From Brevinematales bacterium (GTDB lineage: Bacteria > Spirochaetota > Brevinematia > Brevinematales > Thermospiraceae), in the NCBI GenBank assembly GCA_026417555.1, contig JAOADA010000001.1:523245-587244 (forward strand): 64,000 bases of DNA, in the 5' to 3' direction. Below, one piece after another: positions 52,943-55,993 of this stretch. The translations under genes were made by a program, and so were the position numbers. The notes below the pieces were generated by a model. The model had not been told where the DNA came from. It saw nothing but the letters and a program-made list of their open reading frames with translations, and searched no databases. The number at the start of each line of letters is the position of its first letter. The stretch's first letter is position 1.

Positions 52943-53671
52943 TCACACCTCAATGAGCATATACCCTACACCAAATATCGTTTTGATATACCTTGCCTGA
53001 CGGCCTGTATCTCCTATTTTCTCTCGAATGTTGACGATATTGGTATCTACCACACGATCTGTAATCGCATGTTCCTCCTCCAAAAACCAAACCGTCTTCA
53101 AAAACTCAGCCCTAGGGATAACCCGTCCCTTATTCATATATAAGAGTTTCAACATACCCGCTTCTTTGGGGGTCAACATAATGGTTTCCCCATTCCTTAT
53201 CACAAGCATCCGATCAAAGTCAACCTCTGCCTCTCCAATGCGAACAGGCCCATTCATCACAAGATGCCCTTTTTTGAGTTCTTTGTTTTTGATCTCTTTC
53301 ACATAATTGGCAACCCGAAGCCTTGCCTTAAGACGACAAAACACCTCCATCGTATCAAAGGGCTTGCGAATAAAATCATCCGCTCCCATGTTGAAAAAAT
53401 ATACCGCTTTCTCAGCTGACACTTGATCCGATACCACCATGATAGGAAGAGCTGGGTTTCTTCGACGAAGCTCCTGCAAGAGGGTCCCGCTACGATTTCC
53501 TATCTGGGCCACGTCAAAAAGAACCACATCCACCTGAGAAGCTATGCCCACATCCACCATCTCTGGCTTCACCACTTGGTACCCAATAGGGGGCTGATGC
53601 AGTTCAAGATGGGACAAAAGCTCCTGAAATTCTCCTGCCTCAGGCAGGATCAACAACACCTTGTTCTCCAT
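52943..53671 (-). CDS. OmpR-type response regulator with atypical receiver
   Basis: 242 residues. Receiver domain 1-120: Asp53 (VVLFDVAQ) and Lys in FIRKPFD are present and a Ser occupies the T/S site (MVVSDQ), but the acidic pair that binds Mg after beta-1 is Leu-Pro (VLLILPEAG). Phosphorylation is therefore likely weak or absent. The C-terminal winged helix (about 140-240) has MLTPKEAGMLKLLYMNKGRVIPRAEF and VDTNIVNIREKI with FGVGYML at the end. No histidine kinase gene is adjacent. GGAGG precedes ATG 53671. Function may be phosphorylation-independent. Confidence 0.88.
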   Translation of the reverse strand: MENKVLLILPEAGEFQELLSHLELHQPPIGYQVVKPEMVDVGIASQVDVVLFDVAQIGNRSGTLLQELRRRNPALPIMVVSDQVSAEKAVYFFNMGADDFIRKPFDTMEVFCRLKARLRVANYVKEIKNKELKKGHLVMNGPVRIGEAEVDFDRMLVIRNGETIMLTPKEAGMLKLLYMNKGRVIPRAEFLKTVWFLEEEHAITDRVVDTNIVNIREKIGDTGRQARYIKTIFGVGYMLIEV

Positions 53672-53736: not shown

Positions 53737-53887
53737 ATTTTCCACAAATCTTATGAAGATAACCCACAAAGAAAAACGTTTTTTATGGCCCTCTTGTCGA
53801 AAAACATGTGAAAAAGAATCAAAAAAGGAGAATCATCTCCATTCTTAGAAGCAACACAAAAATACCCCCACTTCTTCTGAAGAAAAC

Positions 53888-53914
53888 TTAATTTTTTCTT
53901 TCTTTTTCCGATAG
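53888..53914 (+). promoter_or_regulatory. Sigma-28 (FliA)-type promoter of fliD
   Basis: TTAATTTT at 53888-53895, 11-base spacer, TCCGATAG at 53907-53914, against the consensus TAAAGTTT-N11-GCCGATAA (6 of 8 in each box). It lies 36 bases before ATG 53951 of a late flagellar gene, where sigma-28 control is expected. Confidence 0.65.
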
Positions 53915-53950
53915 ATCCTATGAGGGGAAAAGGGAAGCAAGGAGGCCCAT

Positions 53951-55993
53951 ATGCGATCTCTCTCGTTAGCAGTGGGTATAGTATGTGCAAGCCTTATGTG
54001 GGGAGCATCTATTACCAATAAGCCTATTCTAAATCTTCCAGGAACAGAAAATAAATTTGATACCGAAGGAACTATCAAAAAACTCGTTGAGGTTAAACGT
54101 CTGCCGATCCTGAAGAAACAACAAGAGATCCAGGATCTCAAGATAGAGAACCAGATTATTCAAGATTTTGTGAATTATCTGCGGGAGCTTGATACGAAAA
54201 CCAAAAAGCTCTACAGTTTTGAATCTCCCTTTGGAGACAAATTGGCTAATTCTACGGATGAATATAGCCTCTCAGCCATTGCCCAACGAAAAGCCAAAAA
54301 AAGCCAATACCGCATACGTGTCATCCAAATTGCACAAGGAGATGCTTATGCCAGCCGTTCCCTTTCCCGATTCGATACCCTTCCTCCTGGGGACTTTTCT
54401 CTCACCATGGGTGAGACTACCGTGAGGGTCCGATTCCGTGGAGGGAATATCTACCAGCTTGCAGAACAACTCAATCAACAAGCGTCGGAGATTATTGAAG
54501 CCAAAGTGATTGCTGACACCCCATCAACAGGGGTACTCGTCATTTCTGGGAAAAAGACAGGCCAAAAGAATAAACTCATCTTCTCCGGTACTCTTGACCC
54601 CCTCTTTAAGGCAGATGTTCTCAAAATGGGTGAGGACAAGAAAGAGACATACCTTCCTCCCTTGACACGTTCTCTCACAAAAAAAGGAACCCCCATCATC
54701 TCCCCCACTTCTCTGACCCTCACCCCAGAATCTGAAGTAGATCTTGTCCTCCCTGATGGACCAGAAATAAAAGACAATACTTCTCTCATTTTCTCTGTGG
54801 TTATCACCCCCCTTCCTGAGCAAGAATCACCAACAAACTATCTTTTAGACTTCCCTATAGAAAAAATGGAACCTGTAGAGGTGAGTAACGTTACAGTAGA
54901 AGGGGGAAGCCTCATCGTATACTATGAAGAACCCAAGACTCCTCCCCTCCGCGTTTCTAATTTTCAAGATTATCTTGCTCTAGAGTTTAATGATGGCCAA
55001 GTCCAGTATCTCTCTCCAACGGCTTCCGGAACCTATTCCAATCAAATGGTTTTGCAAAAAGGCAAAAAAATTGTCCGTATGTACTTCAAAAATGCCAACA
55101 CCGACAAACAGGTCATCCTCCAAAACATTTCCATAGAAACTACCATCAGCGAAGGAGGGATTCAGGGGAAAAATCCTGTCTCAAAAGCTCAAGATGCCAT
55201 CTTTACGCTGGATGGTATAGAGGTAAAGCGAGACAAAAATACTATCGATGATGTGATTGATGGGGTATCTCTCACCCTCAAAAATCCCTCAAGCAACCCT
55301 ATCACACTTACCATTGACCATGACTACGAAAAGGTCTATCAAGCCCTTTTGGATTGGGTTCACGCCTACAATCAGGTTATGGAATACCTTGCCATTGTTA
55401 CTACACCAGACAAAGACAGAACCCCTCTCAGTGAACGAAGCCAAGAGACGTTGAGAAATGGTGTTTTCCAGGCAGATGTCAGTTTCAGTACCCTACGAAG
55501 CAAACTGAGAACCATTGCGCAAAATGCCTACCCCACAATATATGGACGTGAACTCGCCGTTTTGGAACAAATAGGTATCTACACAAAAAAAGCTGGATCT
55601 TTCTCCACCAGTGATGAAGACTGGAATACCGCCAAGATGGGGCTTTTGCAAGTTGATGAAAATAGACTCAAAGAGGCCATACAAACAAAAATTGATGGTG
55701 TAGAACAGCTCTTTGCTTCTGATACCACAGGTGACATGGTCAAAAACGAAGGTATAGCAGTTCAGATCAATCTTCAACTTCGTTACTCCTACGGCCCTGG
55801 AAGCTTCACTACCTTGCGTATGGATAGTAACAAACAAAAAATCGCCACCAAGGAAAAAGAGATTGAAAAAATGAACCGCGATCTCGAGGACTATGAACTC
55901 AAACTTCGCCAAGAATATGGTCGTATGAACCAAGCTATCCAGCAAAGCGAAGCCCAGAAAAAATGGCTCCAAGGACAATTCCCCAATAAATAA
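53951..55993 (+). CDS. fliD: Flagellar filament cap protein FliD with an N-terminal signal-like extension
   Basis: 680 residues from ATG 53951, six bases after AAGGAGG. FliD caps the flagellar filament and guides flagellin folding. FliD_N begins near residue 30 (LNLPGTENKFDTEGTIKKLVEVKRLPI, compare the usual start of FliD), and FliD_C covers about 400-660 (LDWVHAYNQVMEYL; LRSKLRTIAQNAYP; then the terminal coiled coil EKEIEKMNRDLEDYELKLRQ). Unusually, 20-odd residues precede FliD_N and look like a Sec signal peptide (RSLSLAVGIVCASLMWGA). A downstream ATG at 53996 has no ribosome binding site, so the long form is favoured. Flagellar export proteins normally have no such signal. Confidence 0.92.
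   Translation: MRSLSLAVGIVCASLMWGASITNKPILNLPGTENKFDTEGTIKKLVEVKRLPILKKQQEIQDLKIENQIIQDFVNYLRELDTKTKKLYSFESPFGDKLANSTDEYSLSAIAQRKAKKSQYRIRVIQIAQGDAYASRSLSRFDTLPPGDFSLTMGETTVRVRFRGGNIYQLAEQLNQQASEIIEAKVIADTPSTGVLVISGKKTGQKNKLIFSGTLDPLFKADVLKMGEDKKETYLPPLTRSLTKKGTPIISPTSLTLTPESEVDLVLPDGPEIKDNTSLIFSVVITPLPEQESPTNYLLDFPIEKMEPVEVSNVTVEGGSLIVYYEEPKTPPLRVSNFQDYLALEFNDGQVQYLSPTASGTYSNQMVLQKGKKIVRMYFKNANTDKQVILQNISIETTISEGGIQGKNPVSKAQDAIFTLDGIEVKRDKNTIDDVIDGVSLTLKNPSSNPITLTIDHDYEKVYQALLDWVHAYNQVMEYLAIVTTPDKDRTPLSERSQETLRNGVFQADVSFSTLRSKLRTIAQNAYPTIYGRELAVLEQIGIYTKKAGSFSTSDEDWNTAKMGLLQVDENRLKEAIQTKIDGVEQLFASDTTGDMVKNEGIAVQINLQLRYSYGPGSFTTLRMDSNKQKIATKEKEIEKMNRDLEDYELKLRQEYGRMNQAIQQSEAQKKWLQGQFPNK

Follow-up and report, generated by a model that had tools for sequence, protein, structure and literature searches.

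A predicted Sec signal peptide precedes the flagellar cap protein FliD in the class Brevinematia

The window, a stretch of 64,000 nucleotides from a Brevinematales bacterium, contains a fliD gene whose product scores above the curated cut-offs for both FliD domains (FliD_N 51.3 bits versus 24.8, FliD_C 151.3 versus 25.4). These domains stand alone at E ≤0.001, and the FlaA sheath family PF04620 has no match in the protein. The FliD_N match is the only one in the genome (search of 2.04 Mb, 33 contigs). In a single-protein search, the nearest named relative comes from Brevinematales bacterium Ch60 (JABLXN010000002.1, 90% identity), which assigns the window to a spirochaete of the class Brevinematia. 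The genes around fliD in the window are, as far as examined, non-flagellar; a divergent response regulator gene (52943-53671) adjoins it, and the Pfam receiver match of this regulator begins at profile position 40.

Features of the fliD locus, with positions counted from the first letter of the window
Feature	Position	Strand	Remarks
Sigma-28-like promoter candidate, CTTAAT ... TCCGATAG	53887..53914	+	CCGA[TA] search
AAGGAGG ribosome-binding site, long start	53939..53945	+	5 bases 5' of ATG 53951; kept in congeners L003 and L004
fliD	53951..55993	+	680-aa frame opened by ATG 53951
Predicted Sec signal peptide	53951..54004	+	residues 1-18; n-h-c pattern, -3/-1 rule, variable codons 2-18, model helix
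Internal ATG (Met16)	53996..53998	+	without ribosome-binding site; unconserved
Predicted mature N-terminal stretch	54005..54052	+	residues 19-34, 16/16 residues identical in both congeners
FliD_N domain (PF02465)	54053..54340	+	residues 35-130, Pfam E 1.9e-13
FliD_C domain (PF07195)	55187..55948	+	residues 413-666, Pfam E 3.8e-44

The AlphaFold model of the window FliD, computed from a 15-sequence alignment (mean pLDDT 84.8, pTM 0.58), displays the long terminal D0 helices of the cap fold (residues 38-88 and 619-676). Structure search places it next to 5h5v_C (Z 25.9, rmsd 5.0 over 346) and 9gnz_U (Z 22.7, rmsd 4.9 over 426). As modeled, the window FliD is a full, intact FliD fold. Residues 229-400 (window 54635-55150) match carbohydrate-binding modules with Z ~9-11 and may form a glycan-binding domain; the same residues match crystal-toxin domains, also with Z ~9-11, the fold being a common β-sandwich.

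The residues preceding FliD_N (MRSLSLAVGIVCASLMWGASITNKPILNLPGTEN) run from one Arg through an uncharged hydrophobic core (approximately residues 4-16) to WGAS, and the model places a short helix (H2-15) here, followed by a low-confidence stretch. A preliminary description of this DNA had claimed a Sec-like signal peptide on FliD with a 14-residue core; the signal-peptide-like pattern is present and the core is hydrophobic and uncharged, while its length is 13 residues. Under the -3/-1 rule, the predicted signal peptide could be cleaved after G18, A19, or S20. The core is short, with a single Arg ahead of it, and the Trp at -3 would disfavor the cut after A19. Where an ordinary type III FliD has an N-terminus without a cleavable signal, the window FliD appears to carry one. 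A lipoprotein reading was rejected: Cys12 lies inside the core, preceded by G-I-V, which does not make a lipobox, and the extension lacks Cys altogether in most class members.

Comparison with two congeners divides the N-terminus sharply. Protein identity amounts to 35.3% and 29.4% over codons 2-18, rises to 100% in both over codons 19-34, and is 88.8% and 78.3% over codons 35-500. Since the complete identity of codons 19-34 persists despite 2 and 11 synonymous codon changes (11 versus L004), the stretch after the border is strongly constrained. The border coincides with the predicted signal-peptidase site, as expected if a signal peptide is joined to a mature N-terminus under constraint. In L004, from a one-contig genome (G001), the fliD frame stops after 554 codons, which may reflect an error in sequencing or a genuine frameshift.

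The sequence upstream of the long start is also conserved. Identity over the 25 bases before ATG 53951 is 25/25 and 21/25 in the two congeners, and the position of Met16 is Leu in both. As described earlier, AAGGAGG lies ahead of the long start and no such site precedes 53996; both congeners retain the AAGGAGG. Among class genes, an ATG lies at most 16 codons 5' of the FliD_N start in 2/16 (L006 and L025) versus 105/110 outgroup loci. Fifteen of the 16 class FliDs are ATG-started; L016 opens with GTG and has no in-frame ATG, and the start position of L005 is uncertain. Further upstream lies the promoter candidate, which resembles the sigma-28 consensus. CCGA[TA] occurs at most 110 bases from the start in 15/16 class fliD genes versus a mean of 2.2/16 in first-order Markov sequences. 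This element is only suggestive, because a stricter sigma-28-like pattern precedes just 13/29 flagellin genes.

FliD_N is found in 16/18 genomes of the class Brevinematia, the remaining two being 73% and 84% complete, and all 16 N-termini, which were read individually, bear a signal-like extension. The score given to each is the highest mean hydropathy reached by an uncharged 10-residue stretch close to its start. Because the class FliDs all score 2.24-3.79 (n=16) and the top ATG-started outgroup score is 1.54, two exceptions (G030 and G237) aside, the extension is not a product of chance; taken by itself, such a score is not unusual in a gene, as 11/52 greedy open reading frames of the window reach at least 2.2. 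The Sec/signal peptidase I pattern of a basic start, a hydrophobic core, and small residues at the cut is present in the class FliDs. Although the alignment of the extensions contains 0 invariant columns, this pattern is kept in every member, and none is reduced to a start at the internal ATG. Two of the 16 n-regions are devoid of Lys or Arg (L005 and L030), and in family f5 the FliD cores are long, at ~14-20 residues. If the chain were cut at a permitted site close to where the core ends, ~10-15 residues would remain ahead of FliD_N in 14/16 class FliDs, ~17 in L005, and 14-21 in L006; ordinary FliDs start mostly 7-12 residues before this domain. On the sequences read, the extension is confirmed as a property of the whole class, wider than the single protein of the preliminary description.

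Across the phylum sample, FliD_N occurs in 223/247 genomes. The outgroup comprised 110 loci from 103 genomes: 30 listed loci, 39 stretches representing at least one per family where coordinates were listed, 11 loci, and 30 loci from a list favoring weak matches (L190 was omitted because L231 represents the same genome). No signal precedes FliD in 100/103 of these genomes; in one (G137) a contig end truncates the locus, and two have hydrophobic signals of their own (G030 and G237), which are the only ATG-started outgroup cases scoring at least 2.0. In two further genomes of family f36, G242 and G233, a score above 2.0 arises only when reading begins at a non-ATG codon ahead of the normal ATG, and these were counted as signal-less.

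A quick IQ-TREE analysis groups all class FliDs in a single clade (SH-aLRT 98), which a single gain in the ancestor of the class is enough to explain. The FliD of G030 (L214 / L181, contig C25) falls outside this clade, and since its long branch joins another long branch, its placement is unsure. This genome is the sole member of its order in the sample, and its signal-bearing fliD lies behind two same-strand flagellin genes; no signal is present on its flagellins or its FlgL. In G237 (L237, contig C8), the FliD start is lipoprotein-like (MKKIAVPSAAILLLAFLVICCDNSS), and a flagellin match is absent from both genomes searched in its genus. The G237 FliD has perhaps been put to another use. G237 thus indicates that a signal on FliD can go along with loss of capping.

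The other axial proteins of the class present a different picture. No signal was found in flagellins (30/30 class loci), rod and hook proteins (30/30; L099 was judged by eye, the other 29 by score), FlgL (18/18 class regions), FlgK (13 class regions containing it), or FlgD (16/16 loci, by eye); these counts refer to loci read, with paralogues sampled rather than exhausted per genome. FlhA is present in 18/18 class genomes. FlaA is likewise found in all 18, with four matches in 17/18; among these four, two are usually short neighboring copies. All 20 class FlaA loci read have signals, with scores of 2.61-3.54, that resemble those of FliD. The idea of the preliminary description, that a Sec-routed cap could assemble from the periplasm side, is supported as a prediction: the host is a spirochaete whose FlaA genes bear similar signals. 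FlaA is exported by Sec and recruited onto the filament afterwards, according to PMC9254593, and the passages considered from PMC13144727 mention a signal peptide for FlaA only.

We propose, with a probability of roughly three in four, that Brevinematia export the FliD cap via Sec and signal peptidase and that it attaches to the filament from the periplasmic side. These steps, from Sec use and cleavage to periplasmic docking and function as a cap, are predictions from sequence, and the Sec route appears to be the simplest reading. Because FliD has a predicted Sec signal and the other axial proteins read have none, the cap probably reaches the tip from the periplasm. A cleavable signal peptide (residues 1-18 to 1-20) would be placed ahead of an ordinary-looking FliD N-terminus. 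Sec would carry the pre-protein out, signal peptidase I would cleave it, and the mature protein of ~660 residues would fold and oligomerize in the periplasm, where spirochaete filaments reside. From there, mature FliD would dock from outside onto the FlgK/FlgL junction and the growing tip, while flagellins, FlgK, FlgL, and hook and rod proteins would pass through the type III channel as usual. We lean towards the view that the class took the cap out of this channel, relying on a Sec-fed periplasmic FliD pool, in one ancestral event, perhaps with a separate one in G030.

According to PMC7316729, the first 17 residues of Campylobacter FliD pack on the adjoining subunit and matter for motility. 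Loss of fliD in Borrelia burgdorferi leaves filaments decreased or abolished (PMC11607428). The title of Ikeda 1993, as listed among the references of PMC6066329, states that filaments of Salmonella mutated in fliD grow again once purified FliD is supplied externally, and PMC6066329 itself reports that capping proteins act when supplied in the medium. By analogy with the restored Salmonella filaments, a cap arriving from outside would be mechanically reasonable; in the spirochaete case, the "outside" of the filament is the periplasm.

Several alternatives compete with a Sec-exported cap. Unlikely, though the least so, is that FliD is still a flagellar type III export substrate and its hydrophobic N-terminus a lineage-specific type III signal. 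FlhA is retained, and flagellar proteins use N-terminal stretches as signals for type III export (PMC7316729), but the extension is absent from all other type III substrates read in the class. Both the n-h-c pattern and the switch from variable to conserved residues at the predicted cut fit Sec, and the FlaA signals in the same genomes are alike. Slightly less likely still, FliD may have departed from the flagellum for another periplasmic job, as the non-flagellar neighbors in the window and the case of G237 might suggest. Against this stand the sole FliD_N match in each class genome having one, the retention of flagellin, FlgL, and rod/hook genes by the class, the sigma-28-like element upstream of 15/16 fliD genes, the complete cap fold of the model, and the strongly constrained N-terminus.

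We regard it as improbable that the extension is an uncleaved anchor tethering FliD to the inner membrane on its periplasmic side. The long cores of family f5 and the lipoprotein-like FliD of G237 would accord with an anchor, but in most members a moderate core is followed by a permitted cut site, and a membrane-tethered cap presumably could not move with the filament tip. Hardly credible is a start-site error, with the true start downstream and the extension untranslated: the ATG at 53996 offers such a start, but the long start has the ribosome-binding site ahead of it in 3/3 congeners, Met16 is unconserved, and only two of the 16 class genes have an ATG that close to FliD_N.

In the textbook scheme, rod, hook, junction, cap, and flagellin all travel through the flagellar type III channel and are added at the far end. 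In line with this, FliD is described as a late type III substrate in PMC9307174. Nothing relevant to Sec export of FliD otherwise appears in the passages considered from PMC8983047 or PMC9307174, and FliD is unmentioned in those from PMC7225975. The literature searched, which lies mostly outside the subscription journals, yielded no report of a Sec-routed FliD and no paper on Brevinematia FliD. If our proposal holds, a Sec-exported cap would be a natural exception to the type III rule that is kept across a class, and the periplasmic location would let the filament be built from two sides. Capping would be freed from the type III export order, and broken or uncapped filaments could be re-capped from outside. 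The old question of whether the cap must come via the channel, and in sequence, would then become testable through nature's own experiment.

Sec export of flagellar proteins has precedents. FcpA of Leptospira is a filament protein with a signal peptide that is Sec-exported like FlaA, and the ring proteins FlgI and FlgH as well as FlgA are flagellar parts exported via Sec. FlgI/FlgH and FlgA thus share the route proposed for FliD, but they are non-axial and bypass the type III channel. Spirochaete FlaA is likewise a filament protein with a signal peptide; however, it forms part of the sheath and is not related to FliD, the tip cap. A further close counterpart is the ordinary FliD (HAP2, flagellar hook-associated protein 2), with which the Brevinematia protein shares FliD_N and FliD_C, the cap fold with its long terminal helices, the single copy, and a sigma-28-like promoter candidate. 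In contrast to HAP2, Brevinematia FliD has a predicted signal peptide ahead of these domains, and its predicted route is Sec, not type III.
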